Part shown: piece after piece, positions 8,186-20,927 of the stretch
How positions within the stretch are numbered: position 1 is the stretch's first letter
Layout of the letters: each line of letters starts with the position of its first letter
DNA from: a virus
Reading direction: 5' to 3' (one strand)
Length of the DNA stretch: 20,927 nucleotides
Virus record (IMG/VR): IMGVR_UViG_3300035204_000113
Location: 1 to 20,927 of that record
Program-made: the position numbers and the translations under genes
The notes under the pieces: model-generated
The model's database searches: none
The model's input: only the letters and a program-made list of their open reading frames with translations
Told to the model about the DNA's origin: nothing

Positions 8186-8321
8186 GGTTCTTCAGCTCCT
8201 TTCTCAGTCGAAAGACTTCTTCCATTGCCAGCCTTTCTCGCTGAGACATAGGCAACTGATGCTCGAACTCAAACTCCATACGTTCTAAGGAGTTTGTATT
8301 AGTCATTGTTAGTTTCTTCAT
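8130..8321 (-). CDS. Hypothetical protein, 63 aa, coupled to RNR
   Basis: The ATG at 8321 overlaps the RNR stop as ATGA, which argues for translational coupling. A second ATG five codons later is an alternative start. The sequence (LERMEFEFEHQLPMSQRERL then AMEEVFRLRKELKNREQ) is charged and helical; the tail is basic. The last 56 bp are shared with the next gene in a different frame, and the AAGGAG of that gene lies inside this one. No family recognised. Confidence 0.6.
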   Translation of the reverse strand: MKKLTMTNTNSLERMEFEFEHQLPMSQRERLAMEEVFRLRKELKNREQKKTVAKNRSRTSGDS

Positions 8322-10210
8322 AAGTCTACAATCTCACACTGACCTGCTACACAAGCGGCAGTCTGAACTCCTTTAGTACTATCTTCAACTTCCCAGTTCT
8401 TCAAACCATCCCAGCTATCGAGGCAAGGGAGATCTGTAACCATACGTGAGTACGAGTCTTCATCAATCTCCTCATAAGGAGCTTGCTCGTAAGTATGTTC
8501 TGAATAAGGAAGGAAAGAAATTCCACTCATTAATTCAAAATTATCCCACACAAACTGACCGACTTCCATCCACTCCTCATCTTTAATTGAGACAGTAATA
8601 GAAGGCTTGTGTTCACACCAGTAAAGTTGATATCGTTTCCAAATCTTAAGGTGATCAATCGCAGAGAGCTGCTCCCTCATGATAGAAGTCGATGGAGCTG
8701 ACTGCGGGAAAGAAAAGACAACAACGTTTTCAGGCTGATAGTTACACTTCTCATGTGGGAAGCCGTTAGCTATCATGTACTGAGTCATCGGATCTTTCAC
8801 GTCTCCTCGAACACGACGAATGTAGTACTTACTATGCCTCGGATGAATACCTGAGGCAGAATCCACAAGCTGGGATACAGTACCACTAGGCTTCACGCAT
8901 GTAATAGCTTTGGATTTATTGATACCGAGTTTATCGGCATATCTTTCGTTAGTGAAGATAGCTTCCGATTTTAAGTTCATGAGCAACTCAGGATCTGCCG
9001 AAGCAGTCAAGAGATTATCCATTATCCCTGTTAAGCTGACTCCCAACAATGCTTCTTCCCTACAATTCTTTTCAAAGTTAGGATTGATATGTCGGAAATT
9101 AGTAAGGGAAGCTTGGAATGTACCAAGGATAGTAGCCAACCGAACCTTACGAATAAGATCGTCCGCACTATCTGTGTCCCTGATTACAACTTCAGTGAGA
9201 TTACAGAACTGCATGTCCCTAAGAATAATCTCAGAGCATGGGTTTGTACCGAACTTGTGGTTGGCATCTCGTCTACCATTTCTAGAGATTACGGTACGGC
9301 AGGCATCTCTATTAAAGATACCACGCTCACCTGATTTGGAATTGTACAGAGATACCCACTCCTCCATGAACTGTCCCATTGAAGGCCTGCCTTCGTATAC
9401 AGCTGAGTTGTTAGCTTGAGAGCGGAAGGATTTATCACGCCACCACTCACCGGTCTTAGCAACACGGAGGTCCGCATCATTAAGGTCTGATAAGGAGATC
9501 AAGGCTGATCGTCTTACTCCACCTACTTCAACACAAGACCCGATCTTACACACGATGTCGTGTACTTCGATAGGTTTAAGCTGCCTTCCCCCTGCCTCAC
9601 GGAATGTGGAAACAGTAAAGCTAAATAATTTCTTAAGTGGCTCAGGTCCACTAGCTCTACCCCCAAACGTCTTAAGCCTAGACCCCATTGGTCTAATCTT
9701 AGAGTAGTCAACGGAAGGTTCTTCGCCTTTCCAAAGAGACTCCAACAGTTGTCGGAATGCCTTAGCCCACCCAAGCTTTGAGTCGCCTATAATAATAGTG
9801 GTATCCACTTCTTCAATAACAGGGATAGGCGGAAGCTTATCAACATCTTCCTTCTCAACACTAAAGCCGACACCCGTACCATTCATCAGAATGTAAAGCA
9901 CCTCATCAAAAGCTTGGGGGCGATTGATTGCGAGGTAGCTACAGTTGTAAGCACATATATTATCTAACTCGACAGGTTCTCCAGCCGTCATAAGCAAACG
10001 CATACTAGGCATAACATCATGCGTATAGATGGCTTCATAGAGATCGTGTTCTAGGTGTTCTTCTAATTCATAAGAAGTATTTTCTTTAAGATGATTACGC
10101 ATAAAAGAAACGAAACGATCTACGGTTTCATTCCATGTCTCTCGTCGGAGGTCTTCATCCTTCCACCGTGCGTAACGAGACAAACTAATAAATTGTCTAT
10201 ATAAATCCAT
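8318..10210 (-). CDS. nrdJ: Class II (adenosylcobalamin-dependent) ribonucleotide reductase, monomeric type
   Basis: 630 aa. It reduces ribonucleotides (triphosphates in the best-studied monomeric enzyme) to deoxyribonucleotides without oxygen dependence, using host-derived B12 coenzyme, and so supplies dNTPs for phage replication. The N-terminal RYARWKDEDLRRETW is typical of the monomeric class II family. Active-site residues visible: C90 and C336 (redox pair), N323, C325 (thiyl radical Cys) and E327 in the NPCSEI motif, and the CVKPSGTVSQLVDSASGIH loop at 438-456. The C-terminal C620-X4-C625 pair matches the re-reducing cysteines of Lactobacillus leichmannii RTPR. At 630 aa it is shorter than that enzyme (739 aa), as many phage versions are. 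No intein interrupts NPCSEI. It sits between a ParB-like gene and the virion genes, away from the polymerase, so it may be expressed late. Confidence 0.95.
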   Translation of the reverse strand: MDLYRQFISLSRYARWKDEDLRRETWNETVDRFVSFMRNHLKENTSYELEEHLEHDLYEAIYTHDVMPSMRLLMTAGEPVELDNICAYNCSYLAINRPQAFDEVLYILMNGTGVGFSVEKEDVDKLPPIPVIEEVDTTIIIGDSKLGWAKAFRQLLESLWKGEEPSVDYSKIRPMGSRLKTFGGRASGPEPLKKLFSFTVSTFREAGGRQLKPIEVHDIVCKIGSCVEVGGVRRSALISLSDLNDADLRVAKTGEWWRDKSFRSQANNSAVYEGRPSMGQFMEEWVSLYNSKSGERGIFNRDACRTVISRNGRRDANHKFGTNPCSEIILRDMQFCNLTEVVIRDTDSADDLIRKVRLATILGTFQASLTNFRHINPNFEKNCREEALLGVSLTGIMDNLLTASADPELLMNLKSEAIFTNERYADKLGINKSKAITCVKPSGTVSQLVDSASGIHPRHSKYYIRRVRGDVKDPMTQYMIANGFPHEKCNYQPENVVVFSFPQSAPSTSIMREQLSAIDHLKIWKRYQLYWCEHKPSITVSIKDEEWMEVGQFVWDNFELMSGISFLPYSEHTYEQAPYEEIDEDSYSRMVTDLPCLDSWDGLKNWEVEDSTKGVQTAACVAGQCEIVDL

Positions 10211-10218
10211 TGTTATTC

Positions 10219-10722
10219 CTAAGTAAATCTAAAGTGAGTACCTTCCATCATTAGGTTTTCAATATGCCTAAGCCAAAAAGCGTCATCATATTCAACGATA
10301 ATAATATCTACGTGAGTAAACCCAGCTCTTTTTAATGCCTCGAATCTTTGAGTCCCTGTCCATAACAGAGGCTTTGTATGATCGAACTTTCGTTCTGGTC
10401 CAATATTTCCTAATGTCTTTCGTAGTTTTTGATTAACTCTTGTTATACAGTGATCTTGTGTTGAAACTCTATAATTTTTAAGGACTCGTTCATCTACCCC
10501 GACACAAGACAAAGGCCACCAAAGTCCATCCTTTTCTATACTAGAAACTAGATTTTTAAATCCCGGTCGCTCCCAGTCCTCGAGGTTTCTTGATTCTCCA
10601 AACGGATTCTCAATGTCTTCGAGAGCGTATTTTTGTGCGTGCCAAGCTCGTCGCTCTGATTCACACAACGCCCATTTAGTCCTAGGGGTTACTTCTTTGT
10701 TTAAAGCTTCGGCATACTTCAC
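10219..10722 (-). CDS. ParB/Srx-like nuclease-domain protein
   Basis: 167 aa from the GTG at 10722, chosen because it overlaps the upstream TGA as GTGA like other junctions here. A GTG at 10755 would add 11 residues; neither start has a strong ribosome site. LVSSIEKDGLWWPLSCV (about 58-74) and GTQRFEALKRAGFTHVDIIIV (about 123-143) match the ParB N-terminal fold: a 'l..SI...G...P' helix-strand, and the G-x-x-R-x-x-A box followed by 'aG...v.v.i.'. The usual 'NG.HR' is WTGTQR here. The helix-turn-helix part of plasmid ParB is absent. Phage proteins of this class include nucleases and nucleotidyl-binding proteins; the role here is unknown. It lies 8 bp before RNR. Confidence 0.65.
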   Translation of the reverse strand: MKYAEALNKEVTPRTKWALCESERRAWHAQKYALEDIENPFGESRNLEDWERPGFKNLVSSIEKDGLWWPLSCVGVDERVLKNYRVSTQDHCITRVNQKLRKTLGNIGPERKFDHTKPLLWTGTQRFEALKRAGFTHVDIIIVEYDDAFWLRHIENLMMEGTHFRFT

Positions 10723-11033
10723 TCTTTCTTTAATCCAATAATTTGAAACCAGCACAACGCCGAGGCATTCGTGCCCACATCATACCGGATTTCTTTAGCC
10801 TCCACTTCAAGAAGAACGCCCGTCTGGACCTCCATTGTAATTCCATCAATCTCAAGAGTGTGAGTTCCGCCAGCATCCCAAGTAACATTGCCTCTGTCAT
10901 CAGTACCTACTAAAACCCGGATCCAAATAGCGTCTTGTTTTTCGCTGAACTCTAATGTTCGGCTTCCAGTACTCGATGGTTCAGTAGACTCGTAACAATC
11001 GTCACTTGTTTTAGTATATTTTGCATAAGCCAT
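10719..11033 (-). CDS. Small putative virion protein, paralogue 2 (104 aa)
   Basis: 104 aa starting MAYAKYTKTSDDCYES. It is a paralogue of the adjacent 90-residue gene: both begin MAY-x-KY, have a DA(I/L)W strand, and end with a LxxEVxxKEI block followed by an 'alC.fqII.L' strand. The all-beta pattern with 'G.t.ev..Gv.l.v.akeI' resembles short beta-rich phage proteins found with tail or spike components. I assign no function beyond that. The ATG overlaps the TGA of the upstream gene by one base (TGATG). Confidence 0.72.
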   Translation of the reverse strand: MAYAKYTKTSDDCYESTEPSSTGSRTLEFSEKQDAIWIRVLVGTDDRGNVTWDAGGTHTLEIDGITMEVQTGVLLEVEAKEIRYDVGTNASALCWFQIIGLKKE

Positions 11034-11305
11034 CAGTTACTCCATCTTTCACCGGATTCGAGGCTGACGATCTCGCTGCACTTTGTATCTGCATCAACAA
11101 TCTCCTTAACCTCAATCGGAAGAAGCGTACCATCTGAAATTCCTTTGAATGTTACCGCGGTATCATCCTTTACCAGCTTGACTTTGAGGTCGCCATCCGT
11201 TCCGCCGGTTCCGCCGGTATTACTACCAACCCATAACGCATCGTGCTCAGTTGTAATTGATCCAGTGCCAAGTTCTGTTGCACTTCTATACTTATCGTAC
11301 GCCAT
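11033..11305 (-). CDS. Small putative virion protein, paralogue 1 (90 aa)
   Basis: 90 aa: MAYDKYRSATELGTGSITTE, then a Gly/Thr-rich loop, then LKVKLVKDDTAVTFKGISDG and TLLPIEVKEIVDADTKCSEIVSL. The 'v.l..d.tavtF..i..GtlLPi.vk.i....t....Iv.L' layout is common in short phage beta-proteins located near tail or capsid genes, including spike-base-like proteins. It looks like a tandem duplicate partner of the next gene. AGGAG lies 9 nt before the ATG, which shares one base with the upstream stop (TAATG). Confidence 0.75.
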   Translation of the reverse strand: MAYDKYRSATELGTGSITTEHDALWVGSNTGGTGGTDGDLKVKLVKDDTAVTFKGISDGTLLPIEVKEIVDADTKCSEIVSLESGERWSN

Positions 11306-11910
11306 TATCTAAAACTCCTGTATGATTTTATTTCTGGTTTATAGTTAGTAGTTAAGCTTTCGTAAAGCTCCCAAGGGAGCTCGCCGCTGGCATAAATCCC
11401 AAGAACACCTAGGATTTGTTTACTGATTGAGACACAATCAGGTGACGGCTTAGGTATGTGAGCCCCACCTCGGGCATGTCTTACGATGCCCCAGAATACG
11501 GTCTTCCAAATATTAATACTAAAGCCCTCGCTGACAGCTCTGAGTTTACCCCAATCGATCTTACTCCTAGGAACTTTAAAGATTAATTCCTTGGCGATCT
11601 CATAAGAACCCCCGGGCTTATCTCCAATATATAATTCCTCACACATCCAATGACTTGGAATCTGGGAATCAATGTTGTGGATAAGACCATCGATAGCTAT
11701 TTGGCAATGCTGAACAGGACTACCTGCCCAGCAATAGACCCATCGAATACAGTTCATATCCTTAGTAAGAAAGAATTTAATTCGAACATCTACAAGAGAC
11801 TCTGTTTCATTCTCCTCTTGTATATTCTCGGGGTTATCTCTATAGACCCGATTATAGGGCGGTCTTAGCTTCTTTCGCCGCTGACTTCGGGCTTGAGGTC
11901 TGGAATCCAT
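11305..11910 (-). CDS. Probable permuted papain-fold (NlpC/P60, YiiX-like) protein
   Basis: 201 aa from ATG 11910. A VRIKFFLTKDMNCIRWV strand-helix (42-58) precedes SPVQHCQIAIDGLIHNID (64-81), an 'H.qi.i.g.....' strand with H68. It is followed by PKPSPDCVSISKQILGVLGI (153-172) with C159 at a helix start. His before Cys in this order is the layout of circularly permuted NlpC/P60 enzymes (YaeF/YiiX type), which act as amidases, peptidases or acyltransferases. A cell-wall or virion-entry role is possible, but no signal peptide or binding domain is seen. The first 40 residues are basic and low-complexity, overlap the exonuclease by 46 bp and contain the promoter repeat (codons about 17-23), so translation may truly begin later; no ideal in-frame start with a ribosome site was found. 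Confidence 0.6.
   Translation of the reverse strand: MDSRPQARSQRRKKLRPPYNRVYRDNPENIQEENETESLVDVRIKFFLTKDMNCIRWVYCWAGSPVQHCQIAIDGLIHNIDSQIPSHWMCEELYIGDKPGGSYEIAKELIFKVPRSKIDWGKLRAVSEGFSINIWKTVFWGIVRHARGGAHIPKPSPDCVSISKQILGVLGIYASGELPWELYESLTTNYKPEIKSYRSFR
11842..11860 (-). promoter_or_regulatory. Putative phage RNA polymerase promoter, copy at start of late block
   Basis: Minus strand GCCCTATAATCGGGTCTAT followed by AGAGATA. The same 19 bases occur only once more, at 18212-18230, in the same orientation. The downstream CTATAG(A) resembles the start-site end of T7 and SP6 promoters (CTATAG), suggesting initiation at the G. It contains a TATAAT hexamer, but no -35-like TTGACA lies 17 bp upstream, so a host sigma-70 promoter is less likely. 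It would drive the peptidase-like gene, RNR and virion genes. Confidence 0.6.
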
Positions 11911-12653
11911 AGCTTCACTTCCTCCTTTTCCTTGTCATACTCACCCTTTCTGAGTATCCTAACGCAGATTGCCTGCGATACAGCGTATTCTTCAGGGGTC
12001 ATAGTCTCAATTATGTCAATTCGTTTGTGATCAGGCCGTGGATTTTCTCTAAATAAGTCCATGACTACTGAATCCCACTCCTCTCGGGGTGTATCCTTCA
12101 ACAGCTTCTCTGCTTTCTTAGGTCCCCAGTTCCAAACACCAAAGATATTATCAGTCAAGTCTCCGGATATCCACTGCTTGTAGAGATTCAGGTCTGCTTG
12201 CTCCTCGTCTACAAAGCTAGGGCAGTCCTGATACTCGGGATGCCAGTGCCAGCCCGGACAGGCCTGAAGATCCTTGTCGATAGACACAGCCGTAGCCAAG
12301 CCATCTGAAGCCATCATCCCTAGGATATCGTCAGCCTCGATACGAGGTCGACGGATGGTAGTGCATCTGTCTTCCACGATCTCGAAGGCATACTCTAAAG
12401 ACTCAGGCTCAGGGCGACCTGACCTATTGATCTTATATAAGGGGAAGTAGTCACGCCGGTAGTTGTCTTTCCTATTACAGGAGAAGGCAACCACGCAGCT
12501 TGAGTGACCAGCAGTCCATAGATCAATGTCATGGTGGAGCCTGCTTTCCAGCATATCAATGCCTTCGTTGTCAGCCCACCACGCTGCTCGGTGTACTAGG
12601 ATGTCTCCATCCAGCACGGCTAAATTAGGTTTCTTCATCGTCTTCATCCTCAT
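11865..12653 (-). CDS. 5'-3' exonuclease (T7 gp6-like, FEN/PIN fold)
   Basis: 262 aa; degrades DNA from 5' ends, removing RNA primers and recycling host DNA into nucleotides. Acidic metal-binding residues appear in family order: D15 and D17 in LAVLDGDILVHRAAW, E106/D108/D109 in RIEADDILG, D126/D128 in SIDKDLQACPG, and D165/D168 in SGDLTDNIFG followed by the GPKKAEKLL helix-hairpin region (177-185). T7 gp6 is 300 aa. Starts at M1 (12653), M3 (12647) or M6 (12638) are possible; M6 has GAGG at fitting distance. The gene overlaps the kinase end by 29 bp and is the last gene of the replication unit. Confidence 0.88.
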   Translation of the reverse strand: MRMKTMKKPNLAVLDGDILVHRAAWWADNEGIDMLESRLHHDIDLWTAGHSSCVVAFSCNRKDNYRRDYFPLYKINRSGRPEPESLEYAFEIVEDRCTTIRRPRIEADDILGMMASDGLATAVSIDKDLQACPGWHWHPEYQDCPSFVDEEQADLNLYKQWISGDLTDNIFGVWNWGPKKAEKLLKDTPREEWDSVVMDLFRENPRPDHKRIDIIETMTPEEYAVSQAICVRILRKGEYDKEKEEVKLWIPDLKPEVSGERS

Positions 12654-17244: not shown

Positions 17245-17628
17245 TTAGCTATTTAACTTCTCTACCCTAACTACGAAGTAACCTGCTTCGCCGGGTTCAG
17301 TCCATGCCTTTTCAGCACGGACAACAACGACCTGTTTATCATCAACCCAAAGTTTGCCGTTGAGACAATCAAATATAGCTTTTAAGTAGTTGTCGATATC
17401 CGCTTTTGGATAATCGAGCTTAGTTCTTTTAGGTTTAGTAACATACACGAATACCTCAGTCCGGAGGTTCTCCTCAAGTGGAGTCCACTCCGGACCAAGG
17501 GCATCCGTGACAGTCTTCACAGCATCAGTCTTAAATTTCTTATAGGGTCCAGTATAATATGCACCCCACTTAGAAACCCTCGGCCTACTGGCAGCGATTG
17601 GATTGATGTTGAAGACAAACTCAGCCAT
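17245..17628 (-). CDS. RusA-type Holliday junction endonuclease
   Basis: 127 aa. NPIAASRPRVSKWGAYYT (9-26) and PKADIDNYLKAIFDCLNGKLWVDDKQV (74-100) are the RusA family blocks. D77, D79 and K83 together with D96/D97 match the catalytic Asp/Lys set of E. coli RusA (D70, D72, K76, D91). It would resolve branched DNA before packaging, replacing the unrelated T7 gp3 at the same gene position. The ATG shares one base with the SSB stop (TGATG). Confidence 0.9.
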   Translation of the reverse strand: MAEFVFNINPIAASRPRVSKWGAYYTGPYKKFKTDAVKTVTDALGPEWTPLEENLRTEVFVYVTKPKRTKLDYPKADIDNYLKAIFDCLNGKLWVDDKQVVVVRAEKAWTEPGEAGYFVVRVEKLNS

Positions 17629-18161
17629 CAGAAGGGCAGGTCTTCGAGCTCTTCGTCAGGAAGATTTTCAGCAACCGTAGGGGCAGCTGCCTTATTATCC
17701 AAATCTTCATCACGAAAGCCTTCGACCTTTTCAAATCCGGTAGTAACACCGTGGTTGGTCTTCTCAACAATCTGAACACCTTCTAAATAGAATGAGATAG
17801 ACTCGTCTCTTTCCAACAAACAAGGCACAACCTTAACTCGGCAGATATCTCCGCCGAAGGGCAGTGCTTTAGTTTGTTTTGCGTCAGCGTCGACGCAGGG
17901 GAAAGTTTGAATTCCATCCTTAGCCTTAAGGACATTCTTAAACTTAATAGTCTTGACACCTTCCTTGTTCTTTCCCATACCATTGATCTTCTTGCCACCA
18001 AGTTCAGTCATGGTTTCTTCCAGCAAGTTATTAAGATCATCGTCCAACTGGACGGTCAAGCTATGGTGAGGGTTACCAAACTTAACGTCAGGCTTGTGTA
18101 GATGTGACCATGTGACACTCACGTTCTCAGTAAACAAAGCCTTTCCATACTTGTTCTTCAT
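17628..18161 (-). CDS. Single-stranded DNA-binding protein (T7 gp2.5-like)
   Basis: 177 aa from ATG 18161, chosen because AAGGAG lies 7 nt upstream; an ATG at 18188 would add 9 residues (MNFRTRRKS) without a site. The beta-rich body (KALFTENVSVTWSHLHKP..., ISFYLEGVQIV) fits an OB-fold protein. The tail is acidic and ends DEELEDLPF, an aromatic-ending acidic tip as in phage and bacterial SSBs that recruits polymerase and helicase. It sits first in the replication unit, directly after the promoter repeat, like T7 gene 2.5 before endonuclease and primase. Confidence 0.82.
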   Translation of the reverse strand: MKNKYGKALFTENVSVTWSHLHKPDVKFGNPHHSLTVQLDDDLNNLLEETMTELGGKKINGMGKNKEGVKTIKFKNVLKAKDGIQTFPCVDADAKQTKALPFGGDICRVKVVPCLLERDESISFYLEGVQIVEKTNHGVTTGFEKVEGFRDEDLDNKAAAPTVAENLPDEELEDLPF

Positions 18162-18211
18162 ACTTTTTCTCCTTGTTCTGAAGTTCATTTAAATTAATAT
18201 GGATAGTATCC

Positions 18212-18230
18212 ATAGACCCGATTATAGGGC
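18212..18230 (-). promoter_or_regulatory. Putative phage RNA polymerase promoter, copy before SSB
   Basis: Minus strand GCCCTATAATCGGGTCTAT followed by GGATAC, identical over 19 bp to the copy at 11842-11860. It overlaps the stop codon of the preceding 66-residue gene (CTA TAA is inside it) and lies about 50 bp upstream of the SSB ATG, a natural place for a promoter opening the replication unit. The 18189-18211 spacer would be the 5' leader. Confidence 0.65.
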
Positions 18231-18422
18231 TTCCTCTTTCTTTTCTTTATTATTAGGGTTGCTTTCTTCAATATTCATAATAGCTTTTTGGATATCTCCT
18301 GAGATGGCCTTAAGCATCGTAGATATATTGTCGAGAAACGTCAGGACTTGAGGGGCAGAGATGCCTTGGTTCTCAAAATCCTTGTACTTGTCGTGTACTT
18401 CGAACTTGTTATCTTCGCTCAT
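18222..18422 (-). CDS. Hypothetical protein, 66 aa
   Basis: 66 aa, acidic and Lys/Glu/Asn-rich at both ends, with a helical middle (APQVLTFLDNISTMLKAI, about 23-40). The ATG overlaps the metallophosphoesterase stop as ATGA, so translation is probably coupled. Its last codons lie in the promoter repeat. No family recognised. Confidence 0.75.
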   Translation of the reverse strand: MSEDNKFEVHDKYKDFENQGISAPQVLTFLDNISTMLKAISGDIQKAIMNIEESNPNNKEKKEEAL

Positions 18423-19979: not shown

Positions 19980-20331
19980 ACCTGTAAATCTCCTTAATCA
20001 TCTCTCGTGGAATTTTATTTATCATGCCGCATTCTTCTGGACCAATACTATCGGTAATAGAAACAAACTCTTCACAAGAGTAAAGCAAGTAGCCAAGTGT
20101 CCTCATTAGAGGTGGGCTCTTTGCCGCTTCTTCTAGCCCCGCCTCAATATCTGTCCACCCGGAATCACCACATGCTTCCGCATCTAGCCACACTATTTCA
20201 AAGATCGTCTTACTAACTGAAGAAGTAGTTGGATTCGAGTACGAAGCTGGGGTCAAGTCCCCCACCGGGATTTGGTAGGGGCGGAGTTGGGAGTCCGAGG
20301 TATTCCTCGACATCCTTCTTGAGCGTTTCAA
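19948..20331 (-). CDS. Small conserved-type phage protein downstream of RNA polymerase (start uncertain)
   Basis: The frame is open from a TTG at 20331 (AAGGAG 7 nt upstream, but inside the polymerase gene) to TGA 19948. The convincing part begins about residue 40: KTIFEIVWLDAEACGDSGWTD, then LMRTLGYLLYSCEEFVSITDS and KIPREMIKEIYRY. This is the 'v.W.Da.....W.d.e......t.GyLl......v.i..s......g.....IP..mIk.I..l' pattern of a short beta-rich protein found in many phages, function unknown. The first 40 residues overlap RNA polymerase and may not be translated; a start close to the polymerase stop at 20213 would be expected, but no ATG/GTG/TTG lies there in frame before GTG 20193. Confidence 0.6.
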   Translation of the reverse strand: MKRSRRMSRNTSDSQLRPYQIPVGDLTPASYSNPTTSSVSKTIFEIVWLDAEACGDSGWTDIEAGLEEAAKSPPLMRTLGYLLYSCEEFVSITDSIGPEECGMINKIPREMIKEIYRYDRPGTTTDG

Positions 20332-20927
20332 GTACGTTCTCCTTGTGTATTTCTATAAACGCTAGCCGTAAGCACTCGTTCATAGTATCAATGTCTGGGG
20401 CGTGTACACCGTAGGAATCATGAATCATGGAGAATGAATCAATTCCTTTGTGCATTAGCCGGATAAGGGTTAAGAACATGTGGGCGGCATCTAAACTATG
20501 AATATAATTTGGAGCAATCCCAAGCTCTTGTCCGTTCGGATTCACACCATCATAATAGTTAGCGAAGACTAACTCAAACTTCTTCTTGTTAAAGAGTTCG
20601 GTATATGATCGACGTTGCCGAACGGGCTGGTACACATGTTCGACTGTAAAGCCGGAGGGGGTAGTCCAAATAAGGTGCTTATCAGCAGCATTAGCTACTC
20701 CAGCAACCTCCTTCAGCCAATCCTTTCCTTGGTTTGGCATAGCGAGGGTTTCTCCAAGCCCTTGCTGTACCGCCCGGGCCATCTCAACAACAGCACCACT
20801 CCTGTCCTCACGAGGAACCCAATCAAGGTGTCCTTCTGATTTCAGGTACTTCTGTATGCCGTAAAACGTAAGGCCGTAGGCATCACACATCGTCGGTCTC
20901 TTAACTACAGATCGGTCGATGCCTTCT
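20213..20927 (-). CDS. T7-type single-subunit RNA polymerase, C-terminal part (5' end outside window)
   Basis: 237 residues remain before the stop at 20213; the frame is open to the right edge. GIDRSVVKRPTMCDAYG corresponds to T7 RNA polymerase residues around K631 and Y639 (GVTRSVTKRSVMTLAYG). MIHDSYG contains the catalytic Asp equal to T7 D812, preceded by the PNYIHSLDAAHM helix. The end ...LESNYFFS takes the place of the T7 'FAFA' foot. In T7 this part holds the palm and fingers active site. The polymerase would transcribe from the two repeats at 18212-18230 and 11842-11860. Compared with the 883-aa T7 enzyme, about 650 N-terminal residues, including the promoter-recognition part, are not in the window. 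Confidence 0.95.
   Translation of the reverse strand, partial: EGIDRSVVKRPTMCDAYGLTFYGIQKYLKSEGHLDWVPREDRSGAVVEMARAVQQGLGETLAMPNQGKDWLKEVAGVANAADKHLIWTTPSGFTVEHVYQPVRQRRSYTELFNKKKFELVFANYYDGVNPNGQELGIAPNYIHSLDAAHMFLTLIRLMHKGIDSFSMIHDSYGVHAPDIDTMNECLRLAFIEIHKENVLETLKKDVEEYLGLPTPPLPNPGGGLDPSFVLESNYFFS

Follow-up and report, generated by a model that had tools for sequence, protein, structure and literature searches.

A repeated 19-bp element as the probable promoter of a T7-like RNA polymerase in a group of uncultured phages

The 19-bp repeat and its surroundings

The window, the whole stretch of DNA that we analysed, is a 20,927-base fragment record (IMGVR_UViG_3300035204_000113) whose main genes all lie on the minus strand. 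They encode a T7-like single-subunit RNA polymerase (RNAP1, of which only 237 residues of the 3' part are present, at the right edge), a metallophosphoesterase, a Gp2.5-type single-stranded DNA-binding protein (SSB), RusA, a primase-helicase, a DNA polymerase and an exonuclease, along with a B12-type ribonucleotide reductase (RNR) and the portal, scaffold, capsid, tail tube and nozzle proteins. Cultured phages gave no DNA-level match to the window by megablast, and the best full-length matches of RNAP1 among cultured phages are ~29% identical to it. A scan of viral sequences with the protein of the late ORF matched one locus, and one with the SSB protein gave no match. Sinorhizobium phage phiM6, reached via the RNR, was rejected as a relative because its gene order differs. 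The features of the window are as follows.

20213..20926, minus strand: 3' part of the gene for RNAP1, including the specificity loop (phrog_414, E=1.9e-57; loop alignment)
18222..18422, minus strand: 66-aa ORF with its stop codon within copy 1
18212..18230, minus strand: putative promoter copy 1, before the SSB gene, in the same place in G001, G003 and L113; predicted start 18211 or 18210
18198..18214, minus strand: inverted repeat TATGGAT-ACT-ATCCATA (7-bp stem, 3-nt loop), overlapping the end of copy 1
17628..18161, minus strand: Gp2.5-like SSB (phrog_112), the first gene after copy 1
11842..11860, minus strand: putative promoter copy 2, late block, inside the ORF of the next line and without hairpin; predicted start 11841 or 11840
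11305..11910, minus strand: ORF of unknown family, with copy 2 near its start
8318..10210, minus strand: B12-type RNR; the late site immediately precedes this gene in many relatives

An earlier note on this DNA had proposed that an exact 19-bp repeat on the minus strand is a phage-specific promoter. Our scan confirmed the two copies of GCCCTATAATCGGGTCTAT at the places listed, and a chance origin, which the note had thought unlikely, is indeed hard to maintain, with 0 copies expected in 100 dinucleotide-preserving shuffles of the window. The claim that the sequence occurs nowhere else holds for the window, at up to 3 mismatches, and fails beyond it: two other viral contigs have exact copies, and further relatives have near ones. 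The repeat reaches past the 19-mer, GCCCTATAATCGGGTCTAT(A/G)GA being common to both window copies.

Both copies do stand at functional borders, as had been claimed, copy 1 between genes and copy 2, instead, inside a gene. Copy 1 overlaps the stop codon of the 66-aa ORF, and the SSB gene starts at 18161 after AAGGAG, with a longer SSB frame beginning at 18188. Copy 2 falls within the first codons (for PYNRVY) of ORF 11305-11910, which has a good ribosome-binding site of its own, and three extra ORFs separate this late site from the RNR gene in the window. The late-copy codons AAT CGG GTC TAT are identical in 4/4 phages, as against 19/73 other residue-conserved codons (hypergeometric p=0.0065), and are thus kept beyond coding constraint.

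Sites in close and diverged relatives

The further copies upstream of other units that a promoter should have were sought in relatives and found: the element precedes both the RNAP1 and the SSB gene and also stands at the late block and the left end. G001 carries an exact copy ~45 nt before the RNAP1 gene, and L004 has one in its late ORF. The 66.7-kb relative G003 has only four sites, all on the coding strand (left end 9776, RNAP1 22237, SSB 26792, late 33157), and G001 has three, likewise on the coding strand and at module starts (left end, RNAP1, SSB); no late site was found in the G001 contig, and the next-best scores in both scans are at background. For the window itself, an RNAP1 site and a left-end site are predicted beyond its right edge. 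ATCGGGTCTAT is invariant in the RNAP1, SSB and late copies while the preceding A/T block varies, and the two left-end copies diverge from ATCGGGTCTAT after GGGTCT. The left-end copy (G001 19428, minus strand; G003 9776, plus strand) comes immediately 3' of the stop of a giant ORF. After it comes an A/T-rich stretch containing CTTAGG/CCTAGG repeats, which may be a replication origin.

Where RNAP1 is ~50% identical, each lineage repeats an element of its own, built around GGGT, in corresponding places: ATAACCGGGTATARTAGTATA, four times, in G005, GAAACGGGTATAGTAG in G004, AATARTTGGGTWATGG in G006 and G007, and CCCTATAGTTGGGTCTAAAAG in L081. A matrix built from 24 sites in eight records was run on relatives left out of its building, and it placed a site before the RNR gene in 16 of 20 non-redundant held-out loci at empirical p<0.05 (12 at p<0.01), 23-30 nt from the start codon in 15 of the 16 and 18 nt in the other one. 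In most held-out distant relatives the same scan gave no scoring site upstream of RNAP1 or SSB, and pairwise comparison of these regions in distant relatives mostly yielded nothing, because not every lineage keeps the RNAP1 and SSB sites. These two sites belong to some lineages, and since the RNR region scores where the RNAP1 and SSB regions mostly do not, the late site is the most widely kept.

Other signals occupy these upstream regions in some relatives. L034, L036 and L041 carry TTGACA-N16-TATAAT, a consensus sigma70 promoter with an extended -10, upstream of SSB in place of the 19-mer, and in L036 it is repeated ~420 nt upstream of RNAP1; these promoters independently mark the SSB upstream region as a place of transcription start. 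A terminator-like hairpin, AATACTACTCAGGAAACTGGGTAGTATT, lies ~15-50 nt upstream of RNAP1 in L009, L012, L013, L015, L017, L018 and L021, in most of them followed by a T run.

The polymerase and its promoter core

Aligned to T7 residues 739-770, the RNAP1 loop reads xRRS[YFLIV]xxLFNxK..EL in most relatives. The column of T7 residue 749 holds Y or F in the window group, G004 and G005, all of which have C before GGG (CGGGT), and L, V or I where the base before GGG is T (TGGGT). A tree from which the loop was excluded requires at least two changes of residue 749; G004 and G005 cluster with L077 and L035, apart from the window, and L077, on the sister branch and with L at 749, has GGTTGGGTATATAG before RNAP1. 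The Y-bearing L038/L042 branch, whose promoter is not settled, was left out of this comparison. The core base thus appears to vary together with the specificity-loop residue, through few independent changes.

We conclude that the 19-mer is very probably the promoter of the phage's own T7-like RNAP1. Recurrence, strand, synteny, drift with RNAP1 and the covariation of loop and base all favour the promoter proposed in the earlier note, and its expectation of a polymerase with its own specificity and a core differing from that of T7 is supported by the YGGGT core and by variants in relatives that track RNAP1. The broad features of T7-type promoters are present: a single-subunit RNA polymerase is encoded (phrog_414 in the window; a full RNAP1 with PF00940 in relatives) and core bases vary with its specificity loop, if through few independent changes. 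As in T7/T3/SP6-type phages, the same sequence is repeated on the coding strand at the starts of gene blocks, and inspection finds the A/T-rich upstream block, A/T melting stretch and predicted purine start of those promoters, over ~20-23 bp. The specificity loop would bind the double-stranded core (the A/T-rich block, then C-GGG-T), and RNAP1 would melt the TAT stretch and start on the purine just after it. A few strong sites would then start the modules, namely the left end with the early genes, the RNAP1 gene, SSB with replication, and RNR with the structural genes, dividing the genomes into few transcription units.

T7 has 17 promoters, against four sites in ~67 kb here. It has a host promoter directly before its polymerase gene, where these phages have a site of their own; this arrangement exposes a promoter through which RNAP1 could act on its own gene by positive feedback. 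The GGG lies ~9 nt before the predicted start, unlike in T7/T3/SP6-type promoters, and the core is YGGGT rather than their CGACTCAC, CCCTCAC or GTGACAC (PMC11617373, PMC4496689). The T7 promoter spans -17 to +6 (PMC11617373, PMC4496689). The resemblance of the CTAT(A/G)G end to T7 and SP6, drawn in the earlier note, stands for the CTATA|G-like end and the purine start and not for the core, which falls outside the T7/T3/SP6 consensus: the CACTATAGGG-like core of that group (CAC at -7 to -5) is absent, and the core here is GGGTCTAT.

Compared by eye, the nearest published sequences would be the promoters of the Syn5 and VSW-3 RNA polymerases, ATTGGGCACCCGTAA and TTAATTGGGCCACCTATA (PMC11617373). 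Both have an A/T block followed by TGGG, like the TGGGT variants of relatives, and that of VSW-3 also ends in CTATA; in both published elements GGG stands ~12 nt from the end, which is ~3 nt farther than here, and the bases that follow differ. On these comparisons YGGGT is a seemingly new promoter specificity, for which a 2025 survey of T7-like RNAP promoters may hold a matching category. It supplies a promoter specificity for a large uncultured phage group. With its variants it also forms a natural set of polymerase-promoter pairs, where one loop residue and one promoter base seem to change in step and a recognition rule is open to swaps. New orthogonal polymerase-promoter pairs could come from this group.

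Close relatives encode a second, shorter single-subunit RNA polymerase, and its use of the element is the first alternative to weigh:

L094:13346-15475 (G003) and L091:14263-16386 (G001): RNAP2, between the left-end site and RNAP1

RNAP2 is complete in both G001 and G003 (709 aa, 26.6% identical to RNAP1) and comes directly after the left-end site, a position that would suit a user of the promoter. Yet it has diverged strongly (~25% identity, G003 versus G004) although relatives keep the GGGT element, and it was not detected in some GGGT-keeping relatives, such as G025/L081; the RNAP1 loop, by contrast, is conserved and covaries with the element. That relatives share the element while their RNAP2 is divergent or undetected therefore points to RNAP1 as the user, and we regard RNAP2 as an improbable one. 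Second PF00940 genes occur in several relatives.

The adjoining dyad and the early region

The earlier note had no hairpin in its account: the SSB and RNAP1 copies adjoin one at a fixed distance from the core. They run into TATKGAT-NNN-ATCMATA, with arms conserved and loop free (ACT, GGA, AGA, GCA, ACA and GCA in six copies), and the one two-sided arm change is found in the SSB copies of G001 and L113 (TATTGAT/ATCAATA). The late and left-end copies inspected have no hairpin. Other lineages have different dyads, ATGGAGT-AAC-ACTCCAT in G007, AGTAGTATACTACT in L074 and GGGT-AGAAG-ACCC in L078, with the centre ~14 nt from the first G of GGGT across lineages, counted by eye. Folded as RNA from the predicted start, the sequence forms a 4-bp stem only (-2.6 kcal/mol), whereas the whole repeat forms 7 bp (-5.5 kcal/mol). 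A CCC/GGG stem inside the 19-mer was considered and rejected, since the SSB copies of G001 and G003 do not retain the CCC, and a sequence scan likewise rejected the window copies as terminators.

In T7 leaders a stem-loop shields the 5' end of the mRNA. Transcripts from the RNAP1 and SSB sites would begin with such a stem-loop, which would most likely protect them in this way; we give a 5'-terminal mRNA hairpin about an even chance of being the dyad's role. An operator is a markedly less likely role, a virion-polymerase hairpin slightly less likely again, and some other function takes the rest.

Could the conserved sequence itself be the binding site of a regulator, with a phage or host protein on the 19-mer or a dimer on the dyad? 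The dyad, with its 7-bp half sites, overlaps the predicted start, at RNAP1 and SSB only, and an operator would also be compatible with the change on both arms seen in two SSB copies. Against this, the 19-mer core lacks symmetry, the element tracks the RNAP1 loop, and the dyad changes wholly in sequence between lineages, with loops of 0 to 5 and a fixed centre, unlike an operator. A regulator site is therefore very unlikely as an account of the element, while an operator role for the dyad alone is possible.

An RNA-level or coding feature, be it a processing site, a leader structure or merely conserved codons, is less likely still: a hairpin adjoins two classes of site and the late copy lies in coding sequence, but that copy lacks a hairpin and its codons exceed coding constraint, the two window copies stand in different reading contexts, and Rfam has no match in the window. 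A host sigma70 promoter around the TATAAT (-10 consensus) inside both window copies can be dismissed, since several conserved copies that keep ATCGGGTCTAT have other letters in place of TATAAT (TTATAT, TAATAT, TTAAAT, AAAAT), and a scan found no -35 partner at either window site.

The promoter of the N4 virion RNA polymerase is an inverted repeat with a 5-7 bp stem and a 3-nt loop, in which conserved loop and stem bases are needed (PMC4496689). The RNAP1 and SSB sites likewise have a 7-bp stem and a 3-nt loop, but their loop is free, with no conserved bases in the six copies, and, unlike in N4, the conserved element precedes the hairpin and occurs also without it, at the late and left-end sites.

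The giant ORFs before the left-end site have RNA polymerase-like motifs (L092:6995-9667 in G001, in a 4716-aa frame, and 15 relatives, L094 and L117-L130). Their proteins have D-x4-G and R-x3-K-x7-Y, invariant or nearly so, at T7 spacing, with D, R, K and Y unchanged in 16/16 aligned, and an HD motif ~120 aa before these, that is, in the permuted order C-A-B. Matches to RNA polymerase profiles are weak, and two structure predictions of the domain (pLDDT 54 and 50) gave no usable fold match; giant RNA polymerases are a lead only.

We consider it doubtful, though worth stating, that these phages combine a T7-like particle with a cascade of three single-subunit RNA polymerases. A giant enzyme of ~4,000-5,700 aa with permuted catalytic motifs (C-A-B) would probably be injected, RNAP2 would be the second early polymerase, and RNAP1 would use the YGGGT promoters; the giant enzyme would enter at the hairpins of the RNAP1 and SSB sites and at three early ones after RNAP2. 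If so, the RNAP1 and SSB sites would be double promoters, for a handover between polymerases.

The three early hairpins lie just after RNAP2 (L094:15546, 15690 and 15858 in G003; 13740, 14049 and 14183, minus strand, in G001). They have 7-bp stems and AAA or AGA loops, each then followed by AATAGAA(G)A, and their stem sequences differ but still pair (GGTGGGC/GCCCACC, GGTGACC/GGTCACC); the hairpins look like promoters of a virion polymerase or like a structured RNA. L094 also contains a hammerhead II match below threshold at 10711-10791 and, in the early region at 12385-12451, a Pistol ribozyme scoring 65.8 bits, above the gathering score.
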